NCBI RefSeq assembly: GCF_001306035.1
Contig: NZ_LGCM01000042.1
Location: 1-64,000 of the forward strand
Reading direction: 5' to 3'
DNA: 64,000 bases
Source of the DNA: Levilinea saccharolytica
Lineage (GTDB): Bacteria; Chloroflexota; Anaerolineae; Anaerolineales; Anaerolineaceae
This document shows positions 42,507 to 59,681 of the stretch, in pieces. Each line of letters begins with the position of its first letter. The first letter of the stretch is position 1. The notes under the pieces were generated by a model. That model was not told the origin of the DNA and did no database searches. It was given only the letters and a program-made list of their open reading frames with translations. Both the position numbers and the translations under genes were made by a program.

Positions 42507-43082
42507 TTACACCACCGGGCCTTGCTCAATCGAATTTTGCGAATTTTGCTCAGCCAAAGCCGCTTCCGCGGCGCTTTGTTCCGCGGCCAGCCGCTGCTTT
42601 TCCAGCCGGCGCGCCCGGCGGTCATCCGCCCACACCCCAAGGATCAGCACCACCACCCCCACGGTGATGCTGGAATCAGCCACGTTGAACACCGGGAAGT
42701 TGCCCACCGAGAGAAAATCGGTCACATGCCCCACCGTCAGGCGGTCAATCATGTTCCCAGCCGCCCCGCCCGCCATCAGCCCCAGCGCCAGGCGCAAAGG
42801 CCAATCTTTGGCCGGAATTTGCGGAAAGTAATAAATGATGCCGATGATCACCAGCGCCGCTAAAGCGGCAAACAGCGGGTTCTGATCCTGGAACATGCCC
42901 AGGGCCACACCGGTGTTATACCAATGCACAATGCGCGCATACGGTGAAAGCGCGCTCCACGGCATCCAAATTTCACCCATCTCCAGGTTGCTGCGCACCA
43001 ACCATTTGGTCCACTGATCCAGAGCGATCACCACCCCTGCCAGCCCAAACAAAAAACCATAATCCCGTAAATATCGTTTCAA
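42507..43082 (-). CDS. lspA: Signal peptidase II (lipoprotein)
   Basis: The aspartic membrane protease removes the signal peptide of diacylglycerylated prelipoproteins. The 191 residues have four helices and both catalytic-Asp motifs: AGNMIDRLTVGHVTDFLSVG near 112 and FNVADSSITVGVVVLILG near 134. A C-terminal extension of about 35 residues (charged, Arg/Glu/Gln/Ala-rich) is longer than typical. Start TTG 43082; no better codon fits the first helix. The gene heads the lspA-rluD-ltaE group. Confidence 0.9.
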   Translation of the reverse strand: MKRYLRDYGFLFGLAGVVIALDQWTKWLVRSNLEMGEIWMPWSALSPYARIVHWYNTGVALGMFQDQNPLFAALAALVIIGIIYYFPQIPAKDWPLRLALGLMAGGAAGNMIDRLTVGHVTDFLSVGNFPVFNVADSSITVGVVVLILGVWADDRRARRLEKQRLAAEQSAAEAALAEQNSQNSIEQGPVV

Positions 43083-43162
43083 ACCCAGCCTCCGCGGTCA
43101 GCATGTGCCCCTGATTGTACTCGATTTTTAAAGGCGCGGGAATCTGCCCGGCTCACAGCGTC

Positions 43163-43190
43163 AAAAAAAGCGGAGGCATCCTCCCCCGCC
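43163..43190 (-). terminator. Terminator after the alpha/beta hydrolase gene
   Basis: On the minus strand a stem GCG..GAGG/CCTCCGC with loop ATG is followed by seven T (43169-43163). It ends the long transcript descending from about 52.3 kb. Confidence 0.75.
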
Positions 43191-43230
43191 GCATCCCCCG
43201 CCAGCCGTCTCGCCCCTGAACCTGGCCCGC

Positions 43231-44019
43231 TCAGCGCACGCGCCGCTTCCACTCTTCTTTCAATTGCAGCTGCCGCGGGCTTTCCCCCGAATTCAAGGTC
43301 AAAAAGTCCACCATCAGGCGGTTAAATTTGTTGCTCTCATCCAACATGGGGAAATGGCCCGATTCATCAAACAACACCGTGTGGGTTTTCTCTGGCAAGG
43401 CTGCCAGCTGCTCCAGGGATGGGGCTGTCACCGCCGCGTCGTTATTGCCGTGCACCAGCAAACAGGCCGTGGTAGATTGCCCCCACAGCGCTTTGAAATT
43501 GACAGAAGCCAGCGCATTGAACGAGGCGGTCAGCGCCTGAGGGTCGGTTTTGGGGGCATCCGCGCGGGCGGGTTCCGTTTCGGGAGTGCGTCCCAAAAGC
43601 CACTCAGCCAACACTGGCGGGGGACTGGTGCGCAGGCGCGGGTTGATGCTGGCCTCATCCATCGGGTAGCTCACCGCCATGACCCGATCCACCACCTCTG
43701 GGAAACGCGCTGCGTATAAAAGGGCCACAAAAGCCCCCAACCCGTGCCCCACCAAGGCCACGCGGCCAATGCCCAGCTCCAATAAGAAATTGTCCAGCAG
43801 CGAAACCTGACCTTCCAGCGTGTAGCGGCTGGCGGATTTGGCCGAATCCCCAAAACCCCATAGATCCAAAGCATAGGCGCGGTATTGAATGGCCGCCGCC
43901 TGCATCACCGGGATCCAATAGCGCCAGGAGCCGACCCAACCGTGCAAAAAGATCAGAGGCCGGCCCCTGCCCAGCACCTCGTAATGCACGATCTCGCGGT
44001 CCACCACAATAACGCTCAT
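43231..44019 (-). CDS. Alpha/beta hydrolase-fold protein lacking the nucleophilic serine
   Basis: The 262-residue protein has the alpha/beta hydrolase pattern FLHGWVGSWRYWIPVM near 24 and the DLWGFGDSAKSA stretch near 53. At the nucleophile elbow it reads VALVGHGLGAFVAL near 88-101, with Gly where GxSxG enzymes have Ser. The His region, DESGHFPMLDESNKFNRLMV near 218, is present. It may be a non-catalytic binding or signalling protein. It resembles the hydrolase at 54325-55122 over much of its length. It follows the CheY-like gene by 11 bases. Confidence 0.8.
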   Translation of the reverse strand: MSVIVVDREIVHYEVLGRGRPLIFLHGWVGSWRYWIPVMQAAAIQYRAYALDLWGFGDSAKSASRYTLEGQVSLLDNFLLELGIGRVALVGHGLGAFVALLYAARFPEVVDRVMAVSYPMDEASINPRLRTSPPPVLAEWLLGRTPETEPARADAPKTDPQALTASFNALASVNFKALWGQSTTACLLVHGNNDAAVTAPSLEQLAALPEKTHTVLFDESGHFPMLDESNKFNRLMVDFLTLNSGESPRQLQLKEEWKRRVR

Positions 44020-44030
44020 GCCGCTCCCGT

Positions 44031-44405
44031 TTACTTGCCGTACATGGATAACAGTTCGCTCACGCGCTGGGTCAATTCATCCGGCGCAAAGGGCTTAAGC
44101 AAATATTCCGAAGCGCCCGCTTCCAGGCCGTTTTGAATTTCCGCATCCTGCCCCTTGGCCGATAAAAACACCACCGGAATGTGCTTGATGCGCTCGTCCA
44201 GTTTCATGGCCGCGCAGGCTTCGTAACCGGTCATGCGCGGCATGCGCACATCCATCAAAATCAAATCCGGCATCACGCCGGGGGCCGCTTCCAGGGCCTC
44301 GGCCCCGTTACCCACCGCCACCACGTCATGCCCGGCAAACTGCAAGGTAAAAGAGATCAAATCGCGAATATCGGGTTCATCTTCTGCAATTAATATTTTT
44401 GCCAT
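44031..44405 (-). CDS. CheY-like response regulator (single receiver domain)
   Basis: The 124 residues are one receiver domain: acidic pocket LIAEDEPDIRD near 5, phospho-Asp in LILMDVRMPRMTGYEACAAM near 53, switch Ser in VVFLSAKGQDAEI near 78 and the conserved Lys in YLLKPFAPDEL near 100. No output domain, so it probably works by protein contact. It lies 3 bases past the giant kinase stop and is the obvious phosphate acceptor. Confidence 0.92.
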   Translation of the reverse strand: MAKILIAEDEPDIRDLISFTLQFAGHDVVAVGNGAEALEAAPGVMPDLILMDVRMPRMTGYEACAAMKLDERIKHIPVVFLSAKGQDAEIQNGLEAGASEYLLKPFAPDELTQRVSELLSMYGK

Positions 44406-44408
44406 TCG

Positions 44409-47400
44409 TTATTCCTCTTGCGTAAACACCGGCAGCAGAAAGCTGAAGGTGCTGCCATTTCCAGGCTGGCTGGAAAACCAAATGCGTCCATGATGCATCT
44501 CGATGATCGTCTTGGAAAGCGACAGCCCCAGCCCCGTTCCGGCTGTGGCCAAAACCAGCGGGTCTTCGCCGCGGTAGAACCGTTCAAAAATCCGCCCCTG
44601 ATCTTTGGGGGCAATCCCAATGCCGTTGTCGGTCACATCCACCTGCACCCCTTGATCCACTGGGCGCATCTGCACCGTCACCAAACCGCCCGCGGGGGTG
44701 TAGTTATAGCCGTTGGTCACCAGGTTGCCCAACACCTGGCGCACGCGTTCCAAATCGCCCCGCACCAGCGGCAGATCGTCTGGGATCTCGTACACAAATT
44801 CCATCGCCTTATTTTCTTCGCGCGACCGGCGGCGAATATCCGCGTCCACGTCCTCTGCCACCTCGCGCAAGTTCACCGCCCGGAAATTCAGCGTCACCCG
44901 GCCCGATTCAATGCGCGAGATATCCAATAAATCGTTGACCAGCACGCTCAGCCGCTCGGTGTTGCTGCGCACAATTTCCAGGAAATGGCGCTGCTTATCG
45001 TTCACCGCGCCCGCCGCGCCCATCAGCATGATGTCCACATAGCCCTTGATCGAGGTCATGGGCGTGCGCAGTTCATGGCTGACATTGGCCACAAATTCCG
45101 ATTTCAGGCGGTCTACCTGCACTTCGTGGGTGATGTCGCGGAAAATGGACACCGTACCCAGGAATTCTTCGCGGTAAATGACCGCCGCCAAGTGCACCGC
45201 CACCACGCGCCCATCGTCCAGCTCGATCTGCTCGGCGAACATTTCGTTCTGGTATTGATAGGGGTGATCCGACCAGGCGCGGATGGTTTGCATCCAGCTC
45301 TGGGCTGCCTTGCCAAACAGGCCGGTAAACTGATCCAGGCTCTTTCCCACCACCTGCGCGCTGTCCATGCCCAAAATGCGCTGAGCCGAAAGGTTGAAGA
45401 GCGATATCTTGCCGCTTTCGTCCGTCACCAGCACACCGTCGGCCACCGCTTCCAAAATGGCGCGGGAACGCGTGGCGGCGATTTGCTGGTCGCGCAGCAT
45501 GGAGCCCATGTTTTCGGCCTGATCGCGAATGAGGTTAAACAGCTCGGCGTTGCCCAGGGTCACGCCCACCTGGCGGGCCACCGCTTCTACCAGCGATACC
45601 TGCTCCACCATAAAGAAGGCTTCCTGGCGGTGCAGCATGAGCAGTGTGCCGGAAATTTCTTCACCTAAAATCAGCGGAACGGCCACCACGCTGCGGTAAG
45701 GGGCCTGCGGGCCGCCTGTGCTGCTCCAGCGGGCGTCGTTGGGCAAATCGTCCACCAGGGCAGGCGCACGGTGGCGCATCACCCAGCGGGACAATTCTTT
45801 CTCCAGCAAACCGTCAGCGGAGCTGATCCCGTCCGCCCCGGCGCGGTAAATGGTGGGGCTGGTGGTCAGCAGAATCAGGCTTTGTTCGGCGCCCAGCGAG
45901 TCGTTTAGAACGCCCAGGGTGCGCGTGAGCACATGGCGCAGGTCCAGGCTGGCGGAAAGCTCGGTGATAATGCTCAACAGGGTTTGCGTGTTCTGGTGCT
46001 CGCGCATCATCTCGGCGGTGCGCTCTTCCACACGCCGTTCCAAATCTTCGGTCAACCGCCGGGTTTCAGCGAACAGGCGCGCGTTTTGCATGGCCAGGGC
46101 CGCCTGGTTGGTGACGGTGCGTCCCAGGTCAATTTCTGGCAGGCTGAAGCGGTACACTTCCTGCTTTTGCACCCACATCCACCCGTACAGATTACTGCCC
46201 GCCAGCAGCGGCAGGGCCATGAGGGCCTTCAGGCCGCGCGGCTCAAAGTGTCTGGCGGTCAGCGGCTGCAAATCGCGCTCCGTGTGCACATCTGCGCAGG
46301 TGAAAATCCCGCGCGAATCCGCCAGACGTTCAAACAAGGGCAGGCGCGGCAGAGCCAGCGGCAGCGCGCCCACCCCGCCGGGCAGCTCCATGCTCAGGCT
46401 CAATTCGCCCTTGGCCCCCAGCAGAACCGCCGAAACCCACTCGGCGCCCAAAGCGTCCTGCAGTTGGCGGGCCGTCACCTCCAGCACCGTATCCAAATCC
46501 AGAGCGCCTCCCAGGTCAAAGGAGAAGCGGTTCAGCATGGCCAGGCGCCGCGAGCGCTGATCCAGCTCGCCCGCGCGCCGTTCGCTTTCCTCAAACAGGC
46601 GCGCATTTTCCAGCGAAATGGCCGCCTGGCTGGCGAAGGTGGTGGCCGCTCGCACCTGATCGGCGCTGTAATAATCCGCTTCGGCTTTTTCCAGGGCAAT
46701 CGCCCCCACCAGTTGGCCTTTGGCCACCAGGGGGATGCCCACCCACGAAAGGTAATCCGGCTCAATCAAGCTGGGGAAACGCTCATCCAGGCGCACATCC
46801 GGCACGCACAAAGCCTGCCCGGTGGCGATCATCTCCTGGAAGAGGCGGCTGTCCTGAATATCCACCGAAAGGCCCACCTGACGGGCGTCATCTGCAAAAC
46901 CCTGCGCCGCCGCCACCGAAAGCTGCTCCCCATTGCGCAGCCATAGGGTGGCCGTGTCAAAGGGCAGCACCTTGCGCAGATGCCCTAGCAGGGTGGTGAT
47001 GAGGTCTTCGCTTTGCAGGTTGGAAGCCAGCGCGCCCGAAACCTGATTCAAGGCCATCAGTTGCGCCGCGCGTTCTTCTGCCGAAACGAACAGGCGTGCG
47101 TTTTCTAACGCCAGGGCAGCCTGTTGGCCCAATGACTCGGTAAAGACCTGATCGTCCGCGCTGAAGGCCTCAGAGCGGGTGAAATTGTCAATCACCAGCA
47201 CCCCCAGGGCCTGATCACCCCGCAGCAGCGGCACCACCAGGCTGGAAAGCGGCAGCCGTTCGCCAATGGCCTTGCGGTAGGTCAGCAGATCTTCCGGCCC
47301 CAGGTTGTAATCTTGGGCCAGCCGCATTTCTGCCGCGCGCTGGGTTTGGCGCGAGAGGAAGGCGCGCACCGGCAACGGGGCGTTTTCGCGCTGCTCCGCA

Positions 47401-50400
47401 TCCACCGTAAAGCGCAGCGTCTTCAAGCGGCCAGAGTCCGCATAGCCCTGAGCCGCACGCACATTCAACGTTTGATCCTTCGCGTCCCACAGCCCCACCC
47501 AGGCGGCGTTGGCGCTGGGCAGCACGCGCAAAATCGTCTCGGCCAGCACGTCCAAAATGGAATTGGGGTCCAAACTGCCCAGGCGGCGGCTGAAATCGAG
47601 CAGACGGTCCAGCTCATCCACACGCCGCCGTGTGTCGGCCAGATACTGCAAATTCTGTAAAGCGATTTCGACCTGACTGGTGAGCTGCGAGAACAGCTGG
47701 TGATCTTCCGGCCCAAAAGGCGGCAGCGGCTGGGTTCCCACCGCCAGCAGCGCCGCCTGGCGGCCTTCGCCCACGCGAATGGGCAGGCCAATCAGGCTGC
47801 GAGCTTCCAACGCGTTCAGCAGCGGGGCGTTTTTCCAGGTGTTGTGGGTGCTGCGGTCGGACACCAGCAAAATGCTGCCGTCTTCCAAAATCTGGCGCAG
47901 CGGGTTGCGCTGCCCAAAAAGCGCGTCGGGGTTGACCCCTGCCGGAACCGTGCCGATCACCTCGGCCAGGCGCGGGCCGCCAGCAGCCGCCTCGGCGATC
48001 AAGACGGTTTGCAGGTTGAAGCGCGCCAAAATCTCGCGGGCCATGGTCTTGAGCACGGCCTGAGCGTTGGGCTGGCGGCTGGACATCACCGCCAATTCCA
48101 TACCCGTGCGCGTCTGATGGATCTGACGCTCCAGGTTCTGAATGGACAGGGTTTGCGAAAGCTGGCGGCGCAGCAGCATGGGCAAATTGGCGCGCGCGGC
48201 CTGGGCGGCCTGCGCCGCGCGGCTGCGGGCGATCTCCAGGGCGCTGGCTTCGCTTTGCAGCTTCTCCACGCCGTAATATGACTCCAGGGTCAGCGCCACC
48301 TGCAAAGCGAAAAGCTCCAGAGCCTGCAAAGTGGGCTGGTCGGGCTGCAAACCGTCGCGCGGAGAATCCAGGCTGATCAAGCCCAGCGGCTGGCCCTGGT
48401 TGTCGTACATGGGCAGCAGCAAAAAGTCTTCTGGGTTCCACAGGCCCTTTTGGCGCTGCCCCACGGCCGGGGTAACCCGCAGCACGTGCACATCCTCAGG
48501 AATCACCGGACGCTGATCCGAGGGGATGTAATAAGCGTTGCCAATTTTGTAGCTTGGGTCTAAAAGCACGCTCAACCCCTCCCAGGGCTGCTGCTGCGCG
48601 GTCAGGTCCTGCCAGGCGGCATCGGTGAAGCCCACCCCGCTCACCCGCCGCAGGGCGTGGGCGGCGGCGTCGTACACACTGATTAACACCACCTCGAAGG
48701 GCGTGGTTTCGGTGATGGCCGCGGCGATCACCCGCAAATTTTCTTCCAACGAGCCGTTGGTGCGCAGCGCCTGGAACACCTGGAAGAGCTTGTTCAGGGT
48801 GTCCACTTCGCGTTTCAGCAGTTCACCGCGCCGCAGTTGGGATTCAAATTGGAAAGCATTGCTCAGGGCGATGGAGGCCTGCGCGGCCAGCGACTGCACA
48901 ATTTCCACCGCGGAGGGGTCAAAGAACCCCACCCGCTCGGCAAACAGGGCAATCACCCCCGACTGCTGTTGGTTCACGCGCAGCGGCACGGCCAGGGCTG
49001 ATGCGCTGCCCTCGCGCGCCGGGGGCAATTCCGCTGCATCCCAATCGGCCACCACCACCGGCTGCTCGCTGGCCAAGGCCCGCCGCACCAGGGGGTCATC
49101 TGCCCGCGGGGGTTCTCCCACGGCGTACAGCACGGTATCCGTCTCGGGGCCGCGCTCCAGATCAAAGAGCAGCACCCCGCCTGCATTGGCGTGCGCGGTG
49201 CGCAGGGCTTCTTCCAACACCAGCCGTAAAATCGATTCCAGGTCCAGCGAGGTGCTCAATTCGCGGCTGATGCGCATCAGCGCCGTCAGCTGCTCCACCC
49301 GGTGGCGCAGGCTTTCATCGGTCTGCGTCACCAAATAGCTCTGTTCCACCACCCCGGCCAACTGCCCCGCCGCGGTGGAAACCACCTGCATATCGCCGCG
49401 GTCAAAGAAATTGGCCGCGGTGCTGCCCAGCCACAGCTCGCCAATGCCTTCATCGCGCACCACTAAAGGCACCACCACCGCGGAGACAATATCCAGGGTC
49501 TGGAAGAACTGGCGGTAGAAGGGGATGATGGGCTTTTGGCCGATTTCCAGCAGCTCCAACAGGGTGGGGTGCAGGCTGGCCGAAACGGTGAAGGGGAACT
49601 GCGGATCGTCCGCCGTCAGGCTGATGCTGCGCTCCTGGAGGCGTTTTTGGGTTCCGTAGGCTGAATCTTTGTGCAGCAGCAGGCTGGTGCGGTCCGCGTT
49701 GAGCAGGAACACCGCGCCTACCTGTGCATGCAGGAGATGTGCAAGCTCCTGCAAGGAGAACTTGAGGATTTCATCCAACGTGGCCGCCGAAGAGGTCAGG
49801 CTGGCGATGCGCCGCAGCCCCTCGGCGCGCTGGGCGCGCTGGCGCGACAGGTGCATCAGGCCGGCATTTTCCAAAATCGGCGCCACCTGATTGGCGATGA
49901 TGGTCAGCAAGTGCATTTCATCCTGCGAGAACACCGCCTGCCCGCCGCTGTGGTTGGATGCCTGCAAATAACCCAACATGCGCCCGCCGGTCACCAGCGG
50001 AACCAGGGCCGTCTCGCGCAGGCTGGCCCCCTGCGAAAGGCGTTCCAGTTCCAGCCGCGCCCAGTTGGGGTCTTCGGCTGCGTTTTCGCTCAGAATGATA
50101 TCCTGGGCCAGCAAGGCCGCTTCCAGCGGGCTGCCAGGGTTCACCCTCACCTTGTACAGCTCCAGGAACTGCGGCGGCAGGCCGTAGAAGGGAACCTGCC
50201 CCTCCAGGCTGCGCTGACTTTCGTTGTAGAGCAAAAAGCCGAGGATATCCACCGCCACCAGCGGGGCAATGCTTTGCACCAGGTTGGTGAACAGCGTCTG
50301 CGAATCGCGCGCCGAGGAAAACGCCTGGGCCAGTTGGGCCAGGCCGTTCAGCTCGTTAGCGCGATGCTGCTCCATCCGATAGAGCAAAGCGTTGTGCACG

Positions 50401-51341
50401 GCCACCGCCGCCTGATCCCCCAGCAAGCGCAGCAGATCCAGATCATCCTTCTGATACTCGCCTTCGTTCAGACTGGCCAGGGTCAGCGTGCCCAAGAATT
50501 CCTGTCCCACAATCAGCGGCACGCTCATCCACGCCCGCGCCAAAAGTCCCCCGACTTCCATCATCGAAGGACGGCCTTCGGCGGCGTCCATCTCAGGGCC
50601 GACCACCGCCTGCATGGTGCGCGCCACCTGCCCGGCCAGGCCTTCGCCCACCGCGATGCAGTCGTCCATCCGTTCCAGCTGAAATTCCTGCGGCACAATC
50701 CCGGTCAGGCGGTAGGGGCGCAAGGCCTCCATCTCCGCCTCCCATACCGCCACTTCCGAAAAATCGGCGGGCAGCACGCGGCGAATCTCCACCAGCACGG
50801 CCCGCAGGGTTTCCTGCAAATCCAAGCTGGAGGCCATCGCGCGGGTCAGATCAATATAGGTTTGCAGGGTCTCTGAGGTGAGATTGGGTGAGGCGTCAGC
50901 CAGGGCTGCGCCGCTTTCAGGCGCGCGCAGCGTCACCACCACGGCTGCCTCGGGCGCAAGGGGCAGGCGGTACGATGTGCCCACCATAGGGCGCCCGTTC
51001 ACCACCAGGGGCGATTGTCCCTCGGCCCCGCACAGGCTGAGAAAAGCGTCCTGCGGGCGTATGGCGCGCGCCACCCGTTCCAGGCTGGGCGTTTCCCCCT
51101 CCGAAAGCTGCAAGGCCTCGCGCGCCGCGCTGTTGAAGGAAGCCAGCCGCCCCCCCGGCAGCACCACAAATACCAGATCTGTGTGAGAAGAAAGGGTCTC
51201 ATCCACCGTTGGGGCGGCGTCAGAAGGAGGCATGGGGCGCAGACGGGGAATAGAACGCGCAGTCAGGCGCGTTAATACCCAGAAGGCAAGACCCAAAAGA
51301 CCGACGACGATCCCCAGGCTGAATGGATCGAAACCAGGCAT
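44409..51341 (-). CDS. Giant multi-GAF sensor histidine kinase (2310 residues)
   Basis: The protein autophosphorylates on His in response to signals sensed by stacked domains. In order: one membrane helix (residues 8-24); a PAS-like segment (about 48-130); ten GAF-like domains beginning near 172, 343, 517, 695, 860, 1090, 1255, 1442, 1612 and 1797; a PAS domain near 1959 (ILEAVADGVLVTDESGK); HisKA with VANVSHELRTPM near 2085; and HATPase_c with N-box VLGNLVTNGYNYTP, G1 DNGIGIAPKDQG near 2233 and G2 AGTGLGLSLS near 2264. Conserved Cys for bilin binding was not obvious in a GAF. Response-regulator genes flank it at 9 and 3 bases, so all are one operon. The many GAF units suggest tandem duplication. 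Confidence 0.93.
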   Translation of the reverse strand: MPGFDPFSLGIVVGLLGLAFWVLTRLTARSIPRLRPMPPSDAAPTVDETLSSHTDLVFVVLPGGRLASFNSAAREALQLSEGETPSLERVARAIRPQDAFLSLCGAEGQSPLVVNGRPMVGTSYRLPLAPEAAVVVTLRAPESGAALADASPNLTSETLQTYIDLTRAMASSLDLQETLRAVLVEIRRVLPADFSEVAVWEAEMEALRPYRLTGIVPQEFQLERMDDCIAVGEGLAGQVARTMQAVVGPEMDAAEGRPSMMEVGGLLARAWMSVPLIVGQEFLGTLTLASLNEGEYQKDDLDLLRLLGDQAAVAVHNALLYRMEQHRANELNGLAQLAQAFSSARDSQTLFTNLVQSIAPLVAVDILGFLLYNESQRSLEGQVPFYGLPPQFLELYKVRVNPGSPLEAALLAQDIILSENAAEDPNWARLELERLSQGASLRETALVPLVTGGRMLGYLQASNHSGGQAVFSQDEMHLLTIIANQVAPILENAGLMHLSRQRAQRAEGLRRIASLTSSAATLDEILKFSLQELAHLLHAQVGAVFLLNADRTSLLLHKDSAYGTQKRLQERSISLTADDPQFPFTVSASLHPTLLELLEIGQKPIIPFYRQFFQTLDIVSAVVVPLVVRDEGIGELWLGSTAANFFDRGDMQVVSTAAGQLAGVVEQSYLVTQTDESLRHRVEQLTALMRISRELSTSLDLESILRLVLEEALRTAHANAGGVLLFDLERGPETDTVLYAVGEPPRADDPLVRRALASEQPVVVADWDAAELPPAREGSASALAVPLRVNQQQSGVIALFAERVGFFDPSAVEIVQSLAAQASIALSNAFQFESQLRRGELLKREVDTLNKLFQVFQALRTNGSLEENLRVIAAAITETTPFEVVLISVYDAAAHALRRVSGVGFTDAAWQDLTAQQQPWEGLSVLLDPSYKIGNAYYIPSDQRPVIPEDVHVLRVTPAVGQRQKGLWNPEDFLLLPMYDNQGQPLGLISLDSPRDGLQPDQPTLQALELFALQVALTLESYYGVEKLQSEASALEIARSRAAQAAQAARANLPMLLRRQLSQTLSIQNLERQIHQTRTGMELAVMSSRQPNAQAVLKTMAREILARFNLQTVLIAEAAAGGPRLAEVIGTVPAGVNPDALFGQRNPLRQILEDGSILLVSDRSTHNTWKNAPLLNALEARSLIGLPIRVGEGRQAALLAVGTQPLPPFGPEDHQLFSQLTSQVEIALQNLQYLADTRRRVDELDRLLDFSRRLGSLDPNSILDVLAETILRVLPSANAAWVGLWDAKDQTLNVRAAQGYADSGRLKTLRFTVDAEQRENAPLPVRAFLSRQTQRAAEMRLAQDYNLGPEDLLTYRKAIGERLPLSSLVVPLLRGDQALGVLVIDNFTRSEAFSADDQVFTESLGQQAALALENARLFVSAEERAAQLMALNQVSGALASNLQSEDLITTLLGHLRKVLPFDTATLWLRNGEQLSVAAAQGFADDARQVGLSVDIQDSRLFQEMIATGQALCVPDVRLDERFPSLIEPDYLSWVGIPLVAKGQLVGAIALEKAEADYYSADQVRAATTFASQAAISLENARLFEESERRAGELDQRSRRLAMLNRFSFDLGGALDLDTVLEVTARQLQDALGAEWVSAVLLGAKGELSLSMELPGGVGALPLALPRLPLFERLADSRGIFTCADVHTERDLQPLTARHFEPRGLKALMALPLLAGSNLYGWMWVQKQEVYRFSLPEIDLGRTVTNQAALAMQNARLFAETRRLTEDLERRVEERTAEMMREHQNTQTLLSIITELSASLDLRHVLTRTLGVLNDSLGAEQSLILLTTSPTIYRAGADGISSADGLLEKELSRWVMRHRAPALVDDLPNDARWSSTGGPQAPYRSVVAVPLILGEEISGTLLMLHRQEAFFMVEQVSLVEAVARQVGVTLGNAELFNLIRDQAENMGSMLRDQQIAATRSRAILEAVADGVLVTDESGKISLFNLSAQRILGMDSAQVVGKSLDQFTGLFGKAAQSWMQTIRAWSDHPYQYQNEMFAEQIELDDGRVVAVHLAAVIYREEFLGTVSIFRDITHEVQVDRLKSEFVANVSHELRTPMTSIKGYVDIMLMGAAGAVNDKQRHFLEIVRSNTERLSVLVNDLLDISRIESGRVTLNFRAVNLREVAEDVDADIRRRSREENKAMEFVYEIPDDLPLVRGDLERVRQVLGNLVTNGYNYTPAGGLVTVQMRPVDQGVQVDVTDNGIGIAPKDQGRIFERFYRGEDPLVLATAGTGLGLSLSKTIIEMHHGRIWFSSQPGNGSTFSFLLPVFTQEE

Positions 51342-51350
51342 GAGCGATCC

Positions 51351-52253
51351 TTAGCCGTTGGAAGCAGCCGCATCCAGGCGGCGTTCCTCCGCGGCAATTT
51401 CGGTGATTTCGCGAATGTCGGCAAAGGTGTGGGTGGAAGGACTCACCAGCCCCACCGCCAGACTCATCAGTGGGCTTTTTTCCATTTTGCCGCTGTCATC
51501 AGGGGCCATCATGAAGCCCTGTTGGCGATCCATAAAGTTGTAATGCGACTGCACTTCCTCGTTGAAGCGGGTCTTGAGCTGTTGGCGAATTTCGCCCGCC
51601 GTGGTCTCGGAAGTCATGATCACAAAATTGTCCCCGCCCGCGTGACCGATAAAATCGTTGGCCGTGCCCAGGGTGTCCACCACCTCGCCCAGAAGCATAC
51701 CCGCAAACCGCAGCACGTCGTTGGCGGCGATGAATCCGTACACATCCTTAAACGCATCGAAATAATTGATGCGCAGATCCATAAAAGCCCAGCCCTTTTG
51801 GCGAATCAGGCGGCGCAGTTGATCTTCGATCAGGCGCCCCGCGGGCAAACCCGATTGCGGGTCCGTCAGGCTTTCGCGCTCGGCGCGGGCAATGGCGTTT
51901 TGCACGCGCAGTTTCAGCTCTTCAATATCAAAGGGCTTGGTGATGTAATCGTCCGCGCCCAGTTCCAGGCCCTGCAGTTTATCGCTGCGCTCATCTTTTT
52001 GGGTCAAAAAGATGACCGGGATATGGCTGGTGCGCGTGTTGGTGCGCAGGGTGCGGCACACCTCATAACCGTCAATATCCGGGAGCATGATATCCAGGAC
52101 GATCAGGTGCGGCATCACCTGTCGGGTTTTCTCCAACGCTTCCGAGCCGCGCTGGGCAAGGTCCACATCGTAGCCCTGGCCGTTGAAGTAAATTCGAAGC
52201 ATGTTTGAAATATCAGGGTCGTCTTCCACGATCATTAGGCGGGCTTTACTCAT
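51351..52253 (-). CDS. Response regulator with degenerate GGDEF domain
   Basis: Of 300 residues, about 1-125 form a receiver domain with phospho-Asp in HLIVLDIMLPDIDGYEVCRT near 50 and Lys in YITKPFDIEELK near 102. Residues about 140-295 resemble GGDEF, but the signature is GHAGGDNFVIM (GGDNF) and the acidic metal residues of the fourth and fifth positions are altered, so cyclase activity is unlikely; it may bind GTP or c-di-GMP, or act by contact. ATG 52253 has GGGAGG 5 bases upstream. First gene of the kinase operon. Confidence 0.85.
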   Translation of the reverse strand: MSKARLMIVEDDPDISNMLRIYFNGQGYDVDLAQRGSEALEKTRQVMPHLIVLDIMLPDIDGYEVCRTLRTNTRTSHIPVIFLTQKDERSDKLQGLELGADDYITKPFDIEELKLRVQNAIARAERESLTDPQSGLPAGRLIEDQLRRLIRQKGWAFMDLRINYFDAFKDVYGFIAANDVLRFAGMLLGEVVDTLGTANDFIGHAGGDNFVIMTSETTAGEIRQQLKTRFNEEVQSHYNFMDRQQGFMMAPDDSGKMEKSPLMSLAVGLVSPSTHTFADIREITEIAAEERRLDAAASNG

Positions 52254-52355
52254 CAAGGCCTCCCTCAAAAACGGATGTGCATATGATTCCAACCGCCGCA
52301 GGCCAGCTCCCAGGCGGCCTTTGGCCAGGCCGCGGATAGACAGCGGCCCGTTAAT

Positions 52356-52361
52356 ATTATA
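52356..52361 (-). promoter_or_regulatory. -10 box of the giant-kinase operon
   Basis: A minus-strand TATAAT lies 102 bases upstream of ATG 52253. A matching -35 is weak. The 180-base gap (52254-52433) holds no gene and contains C/G-rich partial inverted repeats near 52300-52345. Confidence 0.4.
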
Positions 52362-52433
52362 TCGTCATAATGAAATCTTACCTATTGGAGACGAGGGCAA
52401 ATGGGTTTACAACTTTGTTATGAAGCGCCCCAA

Positions 52434-53711
52434 TCACCAGGATTCCATGCTCTTTTCGCCGGGGCGCGGGTATAAACGCGGATGATTCACCGACCCGCGC
52501 ATGGTATGGTGATCGCTGTCTTCGTAATGCACATCGCGGTCAATCACCCGGCGCTGTGCCGAGGCCGCCAGCACCACATCCGATTCAATCGTGCGCGCGG
52601 GGTAGATGATCATGCCCGCCCCGATGCGGCAATTATGCCCCACACAGCCGCCCAACACGGGCCGGTTGGCGTCTTTCAAGACCCCATTCCCATCCCGAGC
52701 CTTGATCCCCGCCGACAGCAGGTTGAAATCGGTGAAGGTGCTGCCCGCCCCAATGAAGGAATTGCGCCCCACCACGCACATTTGCAGACAGGTATTTTGC
52801 GCCACCATGCTGTTGTCCATAATGGAAGTCATAAACAGCGCCGCGCGGAAGGGCAAAAACGTCCCGTCGCCCACCACCGAAAGCATCAGCTGGCAGCCCT
52901 GCGAAACGTTGACGTTATCGCCGATGATGCAGTTCTCAATCACCGCCCCCGCCCCCACCGTGACGTTGTTGCCGATGGTGGTGGGCCCGTGGATCACCGC
53001 CGATGGGTCAATCACACAGTTTTTTCCGATTTGGACCACCTTAGAACATTCCAGCAGCTGCTTACCCTCATACAGCGCCGCCGCCAACACGCCCAGCTTA
53101 AAGCCCAGGTCGGTGTTCAGGCGGTTTTCAAAACGCGCCCCGCGGCCAAACAGACCGAATACGGTGTCAATGATGAAAATATGCACCCACGAATCAATCG
53201 CCATCAAACTGCGCAGGGGAACCTGATACACCAGGTCGCCCTGACCGGTGGCCATGTAGGTGGGCACGTGATAATAGCCGATCTCACGCGCCTGCAAATC
53301 AATCACCAAAGGCGCCGCGTCGGCTTCGGGGCCGTTGGGGTAATACCACATATCCGCCAGATACAGGCCGCCCACCGGCGTGTACGACAGCGACAGCGGC
53401 AGGCAGTGTTCGCGAAAGGCGGGGTCATCCAACGAAAAAGCCGCCCGCGAAGGGCGCTTGCGCTTGCGAGCTTCTTCTAAAAAGGCCTGGATATAAAATT
53501 CGTCAAAAAACAGGTTGTCGCGGTAAACCAGGCAAGCGTCTTTCACCTGCGGCAGCGGCGAGCCTTCGGGCAGCTCCACCTCGCGGGTCACATACGGATA
53601 AAGCACGTCGCGCTGCAGCAGCCATAAGGGCTTGTTTTGAATGCGCAGATCGCGCGCGGGTTCGTTGAATGGGCGGATGGAACGTTTGCTTTGTAGGATG
53701 ATTTTCAGCAT
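52434..53711 (-). CDS. Left-handed beta-helix (hexapeptide-repeat) protein
   Basis: The 425 residues have an N-terminal domain of about 230 residues I do not recognise (LWLLQRDVLYPYVTREVELP) and a C-terminal left-handed beta helix from about 240: GKNCVIDPSAVIHGPTTIG, then NNVTVGAGAVIENCIIGDNV and GHNCRIGAGMIIYP, with the isoleucine-valine-rich six-residue periodicity of acyl- or nucleotidyl-transferases. No nucleotidyltransferase GxGTRM motif is seen. ATG 53711 excludes an unlikely 67-codon extension. It is the last gene of the GTPase-V4R operon, 8 bases after V4R. Confidence 0.78.
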   Translation of the reverse strand: MLKIILQSKRSIRPFNEPARDLRIQNKPLWLLQRDVLYPYVTREVELPEGSPLPQVKDACLVYRDNLFFDEFYIQAFLEEARKRKRPSRAAFSLDDPAFREHCLPLSLSYTPVGGLYLADMWYYPNGPEADAAPLVIDLQAREIGYYHVPTYMATGQGDLVYQVPLRSLMAIDSWVHIFIIDTVFGLFGRGARFENRLNTDLGFKLGVLAAALYEGKQLLECSKVVQIGKNCVIDPSAVIHGPTTIGNNVTVGAGAVIENCIIGDNVNVSQGCQLMLSVVGDGTFLPFRAALFMTSIMDNSMVAQNTCLQMCVVGRNSFIGAGSTFTDFNLLSAGIKARDGNGVLKDANRPVLGGCVGHNCRIGAGMIIYPARTIESDVVLAASAQRRVIDRDVHYEDSDHHTMRGSVNHPRLYPRPGEKSMESW

Positions 53712-53719
53712 CCGCAGCC

Positions 53720-54328
53720 TCAATCCAGGGGATGTTTGGAGATATGGAAGACGCACGCCTCGGCGCCGGTGCCCTTGCAGGCGGTCTCTTCCACATGGTA
53801 CACCTTGCCGCTGGCCCAATTGAGATACTCTTGCAGCAGCCCTACCGCGAACTGACACACCGGCTCCTGGCTTTCTGACGGGTGGCACCACCAGCAGCCG
53901 CGCTGCGTCCACACCCAGGCGTCAGGGGTTTCCGTAAAATCCAGCGGACTGCTGCCCACCTGCGACAACACGCCTGTGATCGCCTCCAGGCCGGCCTGAA
54001 TGCGCACCGGCGCTGGCTGCAGGCGAAATTCCGTCTGGGTTAAATGCAGTTCCTCGCCAAAATGGTCTAAGAAGGGACGAAAAGCCGCCCGCCCAGAGCG
54101 CAGCAGCACCCCCCGCCCGCCGCGGCGGCCGTACAAATCTTCCAAAGCGCGCCGCAGCGCGCGCAAATCGGTGCCTTTCAAGGCAGCCGCCGGGTCAGAG
54201 AGATGGCTCAGGTTTGCCAGGTTTAAGACCGCCACCAGCCCAACCCGCCCCACAATCTCCTGCACTCCGTCCAGCACCATCCGTCCAACTGGCTGTAAAC
54301 AACCCGATGTGCAGGCATCTCGGCTCAT
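53720..54328 (-). CDS. V4R (4-vinyl reductase) domain protein
   Basis: The 202-residue protein has the V4R small-molecule or heme-binding fold. The tail carries its typical signature: WWCHPSESQEPVCQFAVGLL near 145, YLNWASGKVYHVEETACKGTG near 170 and the ending EACVFHI. The cysteines at about 147, 156, 182 and 189 are positioned like those of the family. The N-terminal half is helical. V4R domains are found in bacteriochlorophyll and signalling proteins. ATG overlaps the hydrolase stop. Confidence 0.82.
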   Translation of the reverse strand: MSRDACTSGCLQPVGRMVLDGVQEIVGRVGLVAVLNLANLSHLSDPAAALKGTDLRALRRALEDLYGRRGGRGVLLRSGRAAFRPFLDHFGEELHLTQTEFRLQPAPVRIQAGLEAITGVLSQVGSSPLDFTETPDAWVWTQRGCWWCHPSESQEPVCQFAVGLLQEYLNWASGKVYHVEETACKGTGAEACVFHISKHPLD

Positions 54329-55122
54329 AGCGTGTTCACCGGGGTATCTAAAAAGTCCTTCAGTTTGGTGCGGCAGGACTCAGGTTCATCCATCATAATG
54401 AAATGACCAGCCTTCTTGAAGCGCTCAATGCGCGCGTAGGGAACCCCCGCCTGCAGCGCCATCCACTGCTTGGGGCTGACGATGTTGTCGCGGTCCCCAA
54501 ACATGCCCATCACCGGGATGCGCAGCCGTTTGAGGTCGGGGCGCAGATCGGTGCGGCGCAGCGAGGCGATACTGAGCAGGAAGGATTCCAACGAAGTCCT
54601 CGAAAGATCGCGGTCCATCATCTCTGGGAAATTGGGCGCGCTGCAAATGTACGGAGAGGCAAAGCGCATGGCCAGCCGGAAGGCCGGGAAAAAGGTGAAG
54701 AGCAGAAAAGCAATTGGCCGGCGCCCCGCCAGCTTCAGCGGGAAGGCCAGCGAGGACCCCACAATCGGCGAGCCGATGATGGTCACCTTCTGCACGCGGT
54801 TGGGATGCTGCAAGGCCACCGACAGGCTCACCGTGCCGCCCATGCTGTGCCCCACCAACGGCGCAGACAGAATTCCCATCTGCTCCATAAATTGATCCAC
54901 CAGGCTGACAAAGTCTTTCACGCGGTAAGTGCTGCGCTTGTTGTCCGATTCGCCAAACCCCCAAAAATCCAGCGCATAGGTGCGGTAGTACTGACCCAGG
55001 TAGGTCATGGTTTCATGCCACAACGACCAGGAACCCAGCCATCCGTGCAGCAGGATGACGGGGCGCCCCCGTCCAAATACTTCGTAATGCAGAATGCCTT
55101 GATCTGTCGTTATGGATGACAC
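54325..55122 (-). CDS. Alpha/beta hydrolase
   Basis: The 265 residues form a classical alpha/beta hydrolase: ILLHGWLGSWSLWHETMTYL near 23, LDFWGFGESDNK near 51, the nucleophile elbow PLVGHSMGGTVSLS near 88 with catalytic Ser, PVMGMFGDRDNIVSPKQW near 205 with Asp, and GHFIMMDEPESCRTKLKDFL near 238 with His. It is coupled at both ends in the GTPase operon (21 bases after the GTPase stop; 4-base overlap with V4R). Substrate unknown. GTG start. Confidence 0.88.
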   Translation of the reverse strand: MSSITTDQGILHYEVFGRGRPVILLHGWLGSWSLWHETMTYLGQYYRTYALDFWGFGESDNKRSTYRVKDFVSLVDQFMEQMGILSAPLVGHSMGGTVSLSVALQHPNRVQKVTIIGSPIVGSSLAFPLKLAGRRPIAFLLFTFFPAFRLAMRFASPYICSAPNFPEMMDRDLSRTSLESFLLSIASLRRTDLRPDLKRLRIPVMGMFGDRDNIVSPKQWMALQAGVPYARIERFKKAGHFIMMDEPESCRTKLKDFLDTPVNTL

Positions 55123-55143
55123 TCAGTCACCATCCCCTCAACC

Positions 55144-55683
55144 TCAGGCTCCCCCCGCGTCCATTTCCGCCAGGATCGAATAGAGCAGCTCCAACAGAAC
55201 CTTCTTGACCGATTCTTTGTCGGTGGCCACGCAGGGCAAGAATTTGACCTTGGAATCCAGACGCAGCGCCACGCGCATATCATCCACTTCCCAGGCGTCT
55301 TTGCAATCCTGCTTGTTAGCCGCCACCACATAGGGGGTGGGCGCATAGGCGCGGAAGGTCTCCAAAATGCTGCGGGCTTCGCGGAAGGTTTCGGGGCGGG
55401 TGCTGTCCACCATCACGATGAACCCCAACATCCCTTCCGAAAGGATCTCCCACATAAAATCGAAGCGCTTCTGCCCCGGCGTGCCAAACAGGTACAGCAC
55501 CAGGTCGTCATCCACCGTGATGCGGCCGAAGTCCATCGCAACAGTGGTCGAATCTTTAATTTTTTCCGCCTCAGCCGTAATCTTGCGCTCTGTGGAAACC
55601 ACATCAATTTCACTGACACAGCGAATAAATTCTGTCTTACCAGAACTAAAGGGGCCAGTGACCACGATTTTTACCGTTTGCAT
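55144..55683 (-). CDS. MglA/COG2229-like small GTPase
   Basis: The 179-residue protein is a Ras-like GTPase of the bacterial MglA/COG2229 group. The P-loop GPFSSGKTEFIR is near residue 10, G3 reads LYLFGTPGQKRF near 65 with Gly in place of the usual Asp, and G4 ANKQD near 119; a G5-like CVATDKESVKK follows near 150. Such GTPases act as polarity or signalling switches with roadblock or DUF4388 partners. It lies between the DUF4388 and hydrolase genes at 27 and 21 bases. Confidence 0.88.
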   Translation of the reverse strand: MQTVKIVVTGPFSSGKTEFIRCVSEIDVVSTERKITAEAEKIKDSTTVAMDFGRITVDDDLVLYLFGTPGQKRFDFMWEILSEGMLGFIVMVDSTRPETFREARSILETFRAYAPTPYVVAANKQDCKDAWEVDDMRVALRLDSKVKFLPCVATDKESVKKVLLELLYSILAEMDAGGA

Positions 55684-55710
55684 GGGCAGAATCCTTCTGA
55701 AGCGGGTAAT

Positions 55711-56526
55711 TTACATCGAACGAATACGGGTAATCAAACGGTTGACCAGCGACTTTTGCTCTTCGCGGTCCTGGGTGGGGAACATGCGCCCCGAAATGGT
55801 CACGCTGGGCGCACCCACGCGCACCACCTCGACCAGACCAGCCTGCAGCAGGCTGTACACCACCCGGCGGATTTCCAAATCGTTCAGTTTTGAGGCTTTC
55901 GCAATCTGGCGCATACTGTTTTGCGGGTTCACATACTGCACCACCCGCCACTCTTCTACGCTCAGGTTCACGTTGCGAATGTTGGTCCCCGGCCGATCGG
56001 TGAACTTCAAGGCCATGTCCAGACTGGGGATTTCTTCCTGAAGCTGTTCCCACTCGCGCATCTGGCGCGAGCCTTCAATGATCAAATTTTCCAGGTCAAT
56101 GCGCAGGGCAATTTTGTCGTCCGGCGGGCGCGCGTCCTGCTCAAAATGAAAGATGCCTTCCACCCAGGTGAACAGACGGCGCAGCACACTGATGAAATAC
56201 TGCTGCAGGCTGGCGATGATATCTTCCTGGGTCACATAGCCCGCGTTGATCAGCAGAATGCCCAGCTCCTTATCGGTCATGCGCGCCGCACGCTCTTTGA
56301 GCAGCTTGTACTGGCTGACCGAAATCTTGCTGTTGCGCTGCAAAATGGCCGCCAGGCTGCTGTCCTCATGCGCAAGCTGCGCAAAGGCCAGTTTGCCGTC
56401 GCGAAAATTAATCTGAGCCACTTCGCCTGGGCCTTCAACCACCAGGTTGCCGGTTTTCTTGGCTAAATTGACAAGATTCAAAAGCTGGGTGATGGTAAAA
56501 TCGCGCAGATTGCCTTTAAGCGCCAT
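55711..56526 (-). CDS. DUF4388 (PATAN) domain protein
   Basis: The N-terminal ~100 residues match DUF4388/PATAN (MALKGNLRDFTITQLLNLVN, NLVVEGPGEVAQINFRDGKL), a signalling domain common near two-component and GTPase genes. Residues about 110-180 resemble a helical insert (QYFISVLRRLFTWVEGIFHF) and 190-240 a winged-helix-like part (PQNSMRQIAKASKLNDLEIR). The 271-residue protein heads the operon. A good TTGACT/TATAAT promoter is upstream. Confidence 0.85.
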   Translation of the reverse strand: MALKGNLRDFTITQLLNLVNLAKKTGNLVVEGPGEVAQINFRDGKLAFAQLAHEDSSLAAILQRNSKISVSQYKLLKERAARMTDKELGILLINAGYVTQEDIIASLQQYFISVLRRLFTWVEGIFHFEQDARPPDDKIALRIDLENLIIEGSRQMREWEQLQEEIPSLDMALKFTDRPGTNIRNVNLSVEEWRVVQYVNPQNSMRQIAKASKLNDLEIRRVVYSLLQAGLVEVVRVGAPSVTISGRMFPTQDREEQKSLVNRLITRIRSM

Positions 56527-56563
56527 AGCCGCCTCTGGAGTGGACGAGATACAACTATGGCAG

Positions 56564-56592
56564 ATTATACCCGACCCCTGGGGTCAAGTCAA
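56564..56592 (-). promoter_or_regulatory. Promoter of the DUF4388-GTPase operon
   Basis: On the minus strand TTGACT (56592-56587), 17-base spacer, TATAAT (56569-56564), near consensus. Transcription should start near 56557, 31 bases before ATG 56526. The AT-rich divergent region (56593-56640) holds the palindrome ATTAGCTAAT, a possible operator. Confidence 0.8.
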
Positions 56593-56691
56593 TTAATCTG
56601 ACTTATCAATTAGCTAATCGGTTAGTTTTTTTCCACTTTTCAACCGACAAAGTTGCAAGAAGTGAGATCAGCCCCTCCGCAGACGCATTGG

Positions 56692-56697
56692 TATAAT
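56692..56697 (+). promoter_or_regulatory. -10 box of the helicase-associated-domain gene
   Basis: TATAAT lies 9 bases before ATG 56707, with no clear Shine-Dalgarno and only weak -35 candidates. This geometry suggests a leaderless transcript. Confidence 0.6.
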
Positions 56698-56706
56698 CAA
56701 TACGGT

Positions 56707-58332: not shown

Positions 58333-58393
58333 TTTTTTTAGGCGCGGGCCTCGCCCTGCGCATTCCCAACCCATTCCCCCGGAGTAGCCCCAC

Positions 58394-59578
58394 ATGTCCG
58401 AAAGACTTACCTGGATCCACCAAGAGCTGGACAGCCTGAAAGAGGCCGGCCTCTATAACCGCATCCGCACGCTGGGTTCGCCGCAAGGCGCCTGGCTGAT
58501 GGTGGACGGCAAACGTGTTCTCAACTTCTGCTCCAACAACTATCTGGGACTGGCCAACGAACCCGTTCTGGTCAAGACCGCCCAGGAATACACCCAAAAA
58601 TTCGGCGTCGGCCCGGCTGCCGTGCGCTCCATCGCCGGTACCATGGACATTCACCTGGAACTGGAACGCCGCCTGGCCGCCTTTAAGGGCGTTGAGGCCG
58701 CCATCACCTTCCAATCCGGCTTCACCGCCAATCTGGCCACCCTGCCCGCCCTGGTGGGCAAGGAAGACGTCATCTTCTCCGACGAGCTGAACCACGCCAG
58801 CATCATTGACGGCAGCCGCCTGTCGGGCGCGCGCATCGCGCGCTACGGCCACGCCGACCCCGCCTCGCTGGAAAAGGTCATTCAGGAAAACGCCGGCAGC
58901 TACCGCCGCGGGCTGATCGTGACCGACGGCGTGTTCAGCATGGACGGCGATATTGCCCCGCTGGATAAAATCTATGAGATCGCCGAAAAGTACGATATCC
59001 TCCTGATGGTGGATGACGCCCACGGCGAAGGTGTGTTGGGCACCGGCGGGCGCGGCATTGTGGATCATTTCCACCTGCACGGCAAAGTGGACGTAGAAGT
59101 CGGCACGCTCTCGAAGGCCTTTGGCGTGGTGGGCGGCGTGGTGGCCGGCAGCGCGGTGATTGTGGAATGGCTGCGCCAGCGCGGGCGGCCTTTCCTGTTC
59201 TCCTCGGCTGTCACCCCCGCCGATGTGGGCGCCTGCATCGCCGCGGTGGACATCCTCGAATCCTCCACCGAACGCGTGGACCGGCTGTGGGCCAACGCGC
59301 GCTACTTTAAAGAAGAAATGAAGAAACTGGGCTTCGACACGGGCGTTTCCACCACCCCCATCACCCCGGTGATGTTGGGCGAGGCCCCCCTCGCCCAGCA
59401 GTTCAGCCGCGAGCTGTTTGAGGAAGGCGTCTTTGCCATGTCCATCGGCTTCCCCACCGTACCGCGCGGCAAGGCGCGCATCCGCGTGATGATCTCCGCG
59501 GCGCACCAAAAAGAGGATCTGGATCAGGGCCTGGCGGCTTTCGCCAAGGTAGGCCGCAAGCTGGGCGTCATCGCCTAG
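58394..59578 (+). CDS. kbl: Glycine C-acetyltransferase (2-amino-3-ketobutyrate CoA ligase)
   Basis: This PLP enzyme interconverts glycine plus acetyl-CoA with 2-amino-3-ketobutyrate in threonine breakdown. The 394 residues show the alpha-oxoamine synthase family pattern: [14 protein letters not shown] near 46, SVRSIAG-like [20 protein letters not shown] near 77, [15 protein letters not shown] near 203, the PLP lysine in [20 protein letters not shown] near 240. GGAG lies 8 bases upstream. No threonine dehydrogenase (tdh) gene is adjacent. A second copy, identical in protein, is at 62195-63379. Confidence 0.92.
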
Positions 59579-59604
59579 GTTCGCTGTTCATTCTGCTGTT
59601 GTAG

Positions 59605-59637
59605 ACGAGCCGCCTCTCACCGGGGCGGCTCGTTTTA
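59605..59637 (+). terminator. Terminator after kbl
   Basis: ACGAGCCGCC (59605-59614) pairs perfectly with GGCGGCTCGT (59624-59633), followed by TTTT. It starts 27 bases after the kbl stop. Confidence 0.88.
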
Positions 59638-59650
59638 GGGGGCCGCACGT

Positions 59651-59681
59651 CATTGCGAGCCGCGCAGCGGCGAAGCAATCT
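59651..59681. repeat. Dispersed GC-rich intergenic repeat (REP-like)
   Basis: The unit attgcgag...cgaagcaatct with an inner stem GCCGCGCAGCGGC-like recurs in variant form at 61731-61770 and inverted at 62092-62122. Such units resemble REP-type extragenic palindromes. The arm boundary of the large inverted duplication falls just beyond this element. Confidence 0.6.

Follow-up and report, generated by a model that had tools for sequence, protein, structure and literature searches.

The nine-gene cassette

We analysed positions 1–64,000 of contig NZ_LGCM01000042.1 (assembly GCF_001306035.1) of Levilinea saccharolytica, a stretch of 64,000 nt hereafter called the window, and in particular its region 43231–56526, preliminarily described as two adjacent operons on the minus strand. 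Nine genes, all on the minus strand, lie within 56526–43231 and follow one another, in the direction of transcription, as DUF4388 protein, MglA-type small GTPase, a first alpha/beta hydrolase (ABH1), V4R protein, left-handed beta-helix protein (LbH), receiver with a degenerate GGDEF domain, GAF kinase, single-domain receiver (RR2) and a second protein of the alpha/beta-hydrolase fold (ABH2). Judged by gene order in relatives, Anaerolineales conserve the two "operons" as a single unit. What is new here is that its last hydrolase, ABH2, reads as lacking the nucleophile serine and as ending in a near-invariant tail, whereas the paralogue ABH1 keeps its serine. All genes named in the preliminary description (DUF4388, GTPase, hydrolases, V4R, hexapeptide protein, ten-GAF kinase and receivers) were found, with every named family above its Pfam cut-off; the two Abhydrolase_1 proteins scored 109.3 and 91.5 bits (cut-off 25.8). 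DUF4388 (PF14332) is the domain also called PATAN. The features are as follows.

56564–56592, minus: sigma-70-like promoter upstream of the cassette, TTGACT-17-TATAAT, 11 of 12 consensus positions (pattern match only)
55711–56526, minus: DUF4388 (PATAN) protein, 271 aa; PF14332, 87.1 bits (cut-off 25)
55144–55683, minus: MglA-type small GTPase, 179 aa; Ras/Arf/MglA matches, PF00071, 47.8 bits (cut-off 21.6)
54325–55122, minus: ABH1, alpha/beta hydrolase with Ser-Asp-His; Abhydrolase_1 (cut-off 25.8), GHSMGG
53720–54328, minus: V4R protein, 202 aa, predicted ligand-pocket fold; PF02830, 48.9 bits (cut-off 31)
52434–53711, minus: LbH, 425 aa, nucleotidyltransferase-like N-terminus and left-handed beta-helix; Hexapep, 59.3 bits (cut-off 27)
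52254–52433, no strand: 180-nt gap between LbH and the first receiver, occupied in many relatives by a gene here termed AAR
51351–52253, minus: receiver with degenerate GGDEF (GGDNF), 300 aa; PF00072, 105 bits (cut-off 30.2), and PF00990, 34.9 bits
44409–51341, minus: giant histidine kinase, 2310 aa, with 10 GAF stretches, PAS, HisKA and HATPase_c (Pfam)
44031–44405, minus: RR2, single-domain receiver, 124 aa; PF00072, 100.3 bits (cut-off 30.2)
43231–44019, minus: ABH2, 262 aa, alpha/beta-hydrolase fold without nucleophile serine; Abhydrolase_1, GHGLGA
43732–43749, minus: nucleophile elbow of ABH2, GHGLGA, residues 91–96 (motif reading)
43231–43263, minus: C-terminal tail of ABH2, LKEEWKRRVR and stop; K-x-EWKRR-x-R invariant in 15 aligned sequences
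43169–43190, minus: intrinsic-terminator-like hairpin with T tail directly after ABH2, 8 pairs, 6 of them G-C, six T (pattern match only)

The LbH gene thus starts at 53711 and that of the first receiver at 52253. One promoter-like site and one T-tailed hairpin, both of them consensus matches only, bracket both "operons". The promoter-like site before DUF4388 is the best of 5 in 43000–56900 (3.8 expected from shuffles at a threshold of at least 9/12), and the hairpin after ABH2 is listed first of 20 such sites in the region (15.7 expected), the totals of both kinds being close to those of the shuffled sequences.

Conservation and distribution of the cassette

Forty loci around the GTPase, belonging to eight families, were chosen among the best-matching loci and those on large contigs, and 32 of them, all from Anaerolineales, offered room for the whole array (at least 1 kb before and at least 13.5 kb after the GTPase start). 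Among these 32, genes were found in place for DUF4388 in 32, ABH1 in 27, V4R in 23, LbH in 25 and AAR in 18, as well as for the receiver, the kinase, RR2 and ABH2 in 23 each. An eight-gene core (DUF4388, GTPase, ABH1, LbH, receiver, GAF kinase, RR2 and ABH2, with V4R and AAR not counted) was present in the same order in 23/32 loci across seven families, and neighbouring genes were separated by gaps with medians from -4 to 27 bp, as measured from mechanical ORF starts. In place of the two adjacent operons of the preliminary description, the conserved array points to a single unit.

The same preliminary description held that the two operons would be independent systems if they were never neighbours in related genomes. 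Both the GTPase and ABH2 were found in 78 Anaerolineales genomes, on one contig in 49 and on different contigs in 29. In 48 of the 49 same-contig genomes ABH2 lies on the same strand, 8.0–14.3 kb downstream of the GTPase, the lone exception being G064, where it is inverted and 16 kb away. The outcome of this check favours the preliminary description. The 29 different-contig pairs include some near contig ends and some clear splits (G062, G111 and G113); in G062 and G111 the block from LbH to ABH2 was read elsewhere in the genome.

The genes that flank the cassette in the window appear to lie outside it. The downstream neighbours lspA, rluD and an aldolase-type gene were found in none of the 32 roomy loci and, on either strand, in none of the 40, a control limited by the fetched loci, which reach no further than about 16 kb beyond the start of the GTPase; the two upstream neighbours recurred in 1/40 loci, from a member of the same family.

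A second collection of 80 loci from named organisms consisted of best matches, hence not an even sample, and shares some public genomes with the 40-locus set. In the 57 with 1 kb of room before the GTPase and 8 kb after it, DUF4388 stood upstream of the GTPase in all 57, and ABH1 was found in 45, V4R in 42, LbH in 43, AAR in 23, and the receiver and the kinase in 39 each. In Longilinea arvoryzae, Bellilinea caldifistulae and Ornatilinea apprima the locus includes DUF4388, GTPase, ABH1, V4R, LbH, receiver and kinase. In the 10 kb read from Anaerolinea thermolimosa, the genes from DUF4388 to LbH are present but not the receiver or the kinase.

The place between the two halves is filled in many relatives by AAR, a gene for an acyl-thioester reductase homologue of about 360 aa, found directly after LbH in 24/40 loci, at a median distance of 3 bp from LbH and 15.5 bp from the receiver (within 60 bp in 16/22). 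It was found in 18/23 core loci and in 22/38 named loci with LbH, receiver and kinase. In five loci without AAR the gap between LbH and receiver is 120–261 bp, as compared with 180 bp in the window. Since AAR bridges the halves in many relatives, the two "operons" of the window may be one operon that is missing its middle gene. A profile of 14 AAR proteins matched PigE (5.7e-46) and the cyanobacterial long-chain acyl-acyl carrier protein (acyl-ACP) reductase 6jzu (3.5e-37), and Cys292, invariant in 14/14, aligns with Cys294 of acyl-ACP reductase, to which the acyl group is bound in enzymes of this kind (PMC8341465, available in part). By family profile and catalytic cysteine, AAR of relatives is thus assigned to the acyl-ACP reductases. 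It differs from acyl-ACP reductase and PigE in its context, no aldehyde-deformylating oxygenase or aminotransferase being recognised in the arrays read, and in its absence from the window; one search, weak for want of a positive control, gave no AAR match in the window's own genome.

Across Anaerolineales, the GTPase was matched in 119/151 genomes, mostly at 74–90% identity. LbH and ABH2 were both present in 74 of the 151, LbH alone in 1, ABH2 alone in 5 and neither in 71. The co-occurrence that the preliminary description proposed to check is close: the GTPase was present in 74/75 genomes with LbH and in 78/79 with ABH2, the one exception for each being the same, 82% complete genome. In a phylum-wide set of 301 genomes, 58 had the GTPase and 53 of these also had LbH; no genome had LbH alone and 243 had neither, with the limit that for some of the 53 LbH was matched by its beta-helix part alone and that the GTPase of G302 is 47% identical.

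Elsewhere in the class, one locus (L218) carries all ten genes and two (L219, L220) carry DUF4388, GTPase, ABH1, LbH and AAR but, over the stretch covered, no kinase. Outside the class, the DUF4388-GTPase pair was found without the sensor half (L226–L228, L230), and LbH-receiver-kinase-ABH2 was found apart from the GTPase in the four genomes read at both places (L231–L234), V4R adjoining in 3/4 and RR2 in 1/4; in two of the four, both places lie on the same contig, megabases apart. At the level of gene content, the two halves of the cassette co-occur, also where they are unlinked: a sensor half, V4R-LbH-receiver-GAF kinase-receiver-ABH2, and a switch half, DUF4388-GTPase.

Variants of the array were observed as well. 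Six loci (L061–L065, L068) have, of the cassette, the DUF4388-GTPase pair alone, with an RR2-like receiver (34–42% identity) after the GTPase in 5/6. Two loci with the sensor half elsewhere (L055, L057) carry two further genes downstream of V4R, which we take to code for a HAD-type phosphatase and a fatty-acid-desaturase-like protein. Five loci of family f8 (L031, L034, L035, L036, L040) carry, about 3 kb upstream of the GTPase, an additional V4R gene and an additional receiver. In G002, G003, G017, G043, G061 and in genomes of other classes, a further GTPase of this kind, 44–54% identical, is encoded elsewhere in the genome; one such GTPase, at L236, is likewise preceded by a DUF4388 gene. 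Thirteen sampled genomes of the window's family (genera g3, g4 and g6), several of them small, gave no match for GTPase, LbH or ABH2.

Sequence features of the cassette proteins

The GTPase shows FGTPGQ in 41/41 sequences and NKQD in 36, replaced by SKQD in 5, while T46-T47 is invariant in 17 aligned sequences, its equation with the G2 site being a by-eye alignment. The occurrence of GTPGQ in G3, instead of DxxGQ, marks MglA Groups 2–5, of which Group 5 is known from Chloroflexi (PMC4316618, available in part). With GTPGQ, and with a Thr next to the G2 Thr where Group 1 has Arg, the motifs assign the cassette GTPase to Groups 2–5. According to the same partial source, MglA lies within four genes of MglB in 390/449 cases, an association that is not universal, and members of Groups 1 and 5 occasionally have a PATAN gene in their vicinity. 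No Roadblock/MglB gene was found near the GTPase, the two Robl_LC7 matches of the genome being on contigs 34 and 3, nor did any of the nine cassette proteins match the roadblock family in Pfam, so that a Roadblock partner inside the cassette was discarded. DUF4388 is directly upstream of the GTPase in 39/40 loci, the fortieth (L038) being cut by a contig end.

The V4R protein was modelled with confidence (AF2, mean pLDDT 91), and over about 150 residues the model gave VIA-align Z scores of 13.8 with Thorarchaeal TRAPPC3, 13.8 with H-NOX, 12.8 with human Bet3 and 12.2 with PoxR; on this model the protein has the TRAPPC3/PoxR fold. Only the fold comparison succeeded, a sequence search against solved structures giving nothing credible (best E 0.39). 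Given its score, as high as that of TRAPPC3, H-NOX was considered as well; the V4R alignment has no invariant His, most sequences having one after the second Cys, where the window has Gln. A Cys-x-x-Cys motif (CPxC or CWWC) is kept in 20/29 aligned sequences. The LbH model is weak (mean pLDDT 63) and its best fold matches, ST0452 and GMPPA/B (sugar nucleotidyltransferases with beta-helix), are therefore taken as a hint.

In the first receiver PF00990 is above cut-off, but the signature motif, GGDNF in the window and varied in relatives, departs from the GG(D/E)EF of diguanylate cyclases, which makes active cyclic-di-GMP synthesis by this protein unlikely. In four relatives the number of GAF stretches per kinase ranges from 5 to 16, and all four kinases have PAS, HisKA and HATPase_c. 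In the window's kinase, Pfam matched PAS at about 1958–2071 of 2310 alone, adjoining HisKA; a divergent N-terminal PAS is possible.

The second hydrolase of the preliminary description does belong to the alpha/beta-hydrolase fold, but its catalytic serine is missing. ABH1 reads GHSMGG at the elbow in 35/35 sequences; in ABH2 no serine was found there in 25/25 (23 Gly, 2 Asp). A wider set of 87 sequences (37 ABH2 and 50 ABH1 by best-hit name) was classed by elbow into 38 without Ser (34 Gly, 3 Asp, 1 Ala) and 49 with Ser; L232, whose best hit is ABH1 and whose place, elbow and tail are those of ABH2, was accordingly counted among the former. A FastTree tree of the 87 separates the two sets without error (support 0.893), and the Ser-less branch includes sequences from outside the class, for which a single serine loss before the split of the classes would be the simplest reading.

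The C-terminal tail of ABH2 (consensus LQLKEEWKRRVR in the 15 aligned sequences) is among its most conserved stretches. Outside the order it reads KEEWRRRV or similar, with a short extension outside the class. The exact DNA pattern of the tail occurs in 10/31 genomes, once each except in the window's genome, where it occurs twice because the contig is mirrored; the reversed control pattern occurs in 0/31. All 11 places are ends of ABH2 genes, and a general targeting tag is thus unsupported, bearing in mind that the exact pattern misses variants.

As for the mirrored contig (121,772 bp), it resembles an inverted duplication around its midpoint, with segments 57773–59722 and 62051–64000 flanking a central loop of 2328 nt that carries tRNA-Gly and tRNA-Cys. 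The GTPase, DUF4388, LbH and ABH2 genes repeat at mirrored places, three of the protein queries being 100% identical. The duplication is probably an assembly hairpin artefact, with the cassette sitting inside one arm.

A candidate signalling unit and its alternatives

We tentatively favour, at somewhat less than even confidence, a conservon-like signalling unit in which the Ser-less ABH2 and the V4R protein would sense a hydrophobic ligand and kinase input would set the GTPase. The ligand of V4R and ABH2 would be a small hydrophobic compound, possibly derived from an acyl group or an aldehyde, that ABH1, together with AAR where present, would make or remove. ABH2 would dock through its KEEWKRRVR tail and tell the GAF kinase of ligand occupancy, a step comparable to that of RsbQ on a PAS domain but acting via binding rather than catalysis. 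The kinase might then pass the signal through its two receivers, and this input would set the nucleotide state of the MglA-type GTPase, with DUF4388, its constant partner, as effector or regulator in place of MglB. The small-molecule gate suggested in the preliminary description finds some support in the V4R fold, the AAR of relatives and the Ser-less ABH2, and is best kept as a conditional part of the model.

The cassette resembles several known systems without coinciding with any. It shares with conservons (CvnA-B-C-D) and with MglA/MglB (PMC4316618, available in part) a GTPGQ MglA-family GTPase, an array histidine kinase and a small partner. Unlike them, it has no Roadblock/MglB alongside, has DUF4388 in place of a CvnC-type partner, and adds V4R, LbH, two hydrolase-fold proteins, receivers and often AAR. 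Defined by a CvnA kinase, a CvnB roadblock, CvnC and a CvnD GTPase, a conservon requires a roadblock protein, which the cassette does not have; nor is the cassette a strict MglA/MglB pair or an RsbQ module. In the RsbQ-RsbP-PAS modules, an alpha/beta-hydrolase gene likewise lies near a sensor with kinase, GGDEF or phosphatase output, the hydrolase being half of the sensor and its triad required (PMC3183031, available in part). ABH2, on the contrary, does not have the triad that RsbQ needs, and the intact-triad ABH1 is not beside the kinase, which differs from the sensors of those modules in being GAF-based and in carrying its PAS next to HisKA rather than at the extreme N-terminus. Finally, PoxR, DmpR, MopR and TRAPPC3/Bet3 (PMC10933270, available in part) share with the cassette V4R a fold with a ligand pocket; the latter is distinguished by standing alone, in an operon with an MglA-type GTPase, and by the loss of the Cys motif in some relatives.

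In the open-licence papers searched we found no description of the cassette as a system, in agreement with the preliminary statement that it was not known as a described one. Of these papers, PMC4316618 alone joins PATAN, MglA and Chloroflexi, and PMC8756737 alone joins DUF4388 and a GTPase: its appendix table, in the part available, lists the DUF4388, GTPase, hydrolase and glmU-like genes of A. thermolimosa as neighbours of nitrite reductase and names no system.

Several observations weigh against the proposed signalling unit. The GTPase occurs without LbH in 45/119 Anaerolineales genomes, so that the DUF4388-GTPase pair is the core of the cassette, and the co-occurrence counts are raw, with no correction for shared ancestry. 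Outside the class, G174 (L221) has DUF4388, GTPase, V4R and LbH together, with no kinase or ABH2 in the stretch read. The V4R model scores no higher with TRAPPC3 than with H-NOX, and V4R was undetected in four core loci; three of these (L046, L066, L070) have too little room for the gene, and since L050 does have room it possibly holds a divergent copy. AAR is absent from 5/23 core loci, from 16/38 named loci and from the window; thus neither ligand synthesis by AAR nor V4R would be obligatory. Because the number of GAF stretches varies, no single one can be a fixed docking site. Finally, ABH2 keeps its His in 25/25 sequences and its acid (Asp) in 23/25, which may mean residual chemistry, and the elbow residue is Asp in 3/38 of the Ser-less sequences.

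Among the alternatives, the cassette could be an operon that makes a lipid or glycolipid of the envelope, with AAR, ABH1 and LbH as enzymes under their own two-component control and with GTPase and V4R regulating or localising them. This appears unlikely. It would account for the AAR family, which makes aldehydes from acyl thioesters, and for the resemblance of LbH to sugar-nucleotide and acyl transferases; but the 5/23 core loci without AAR keep LbH, kinase and ABH2, all four LbH-receiver-kinase-ABH2 loci outside the class (L231–L234) have neither ABH1 nor AAR at the locus, L241 and L244 lack both LbH and ABH1 yet retain V4R, receiver and kinase, and ABH2 has no serine nucleophile.

Quite unlikely, too, is a polarity or pilus/gliding switch in which DUF4388-GTPase, in the manner of MglA and PATAN proteins, would recruit a surface motor, with the kinase block as one input. 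PATAN response regulators are tied to type IV pili in cyanobacteria (PMC7690835, available in part), and the constancy of the DUF4388-GTPase pair here recalls the occasional PATAN neighbours of MglA Groups 1 and 5. However, no motility gene was recognised in the cassette, and PilT was above cut-off in 3/151 Anaerolineales genomes, so that the standard retraction motor would not be the target in most of them and type IV pilus retraction is weakened as a general output. The PilT model matched 126/151 genomes at any strength, below cut-off presumably mostly through other secretion-type ATPases.

A bolder form of the favoured reading would make the Ser-less ABH2 a hormone-receptor-like protein for a self-made acyl or aldehyde signal, feeding the GAF kinase and a Roadblock-free MglA switch whose exchange or activity the TRAPPC3-like V4R and DUF4388 would govern. 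Plant receptors of the alpha/beta-hydrolase fold offer a parallel for a hydrolase turned receptor; we nevertheless regard this form as doubtful. It is improbable, in turn, that ABH2 is still an enzyme acting via His/Asp without serine, such as a lyase or a cofactor-free oxygenase, and not a receptor. The kept His and Asp speak for this, as does the Asp found at some elbows, Asp being the nucleophile of dehalogenases and epoxide hydrolases; but the elbow is varied (Gly, Asp or Ala), a pattern more readily explained by loss of function than by a single new nucleophile, and the tail is among the best conserved stretches. Two independent systems lying together by chance are very improbable and largely refuted, since the split pairs, the inverted arrangement of G064 and the separate places in four genomes outside the class are outweighed by the linkage of nearly all same-contig pairs, a co-occurrence that holds also when unlinked, and the eight-gene core counts.

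The cassette ties together three puzzles, namely the control of MglA-type GTPases without MglB, the role of DUF4388 beside GTPases, and catalytically dead hydrolases as possible receptors in bacteria. TRAPP works with Rab GTPases (PMC10933270), and the pairing of V4R with a GTPase seen here bears on the origin of the TRAPP-Rab partnership. Cassette loci are carried by the cultured species Longilinea arvoryzae, Bellilinea caldifistulae and Ornatilinea apprima, and part of the cassette by Anaerolinea thermolimosa.

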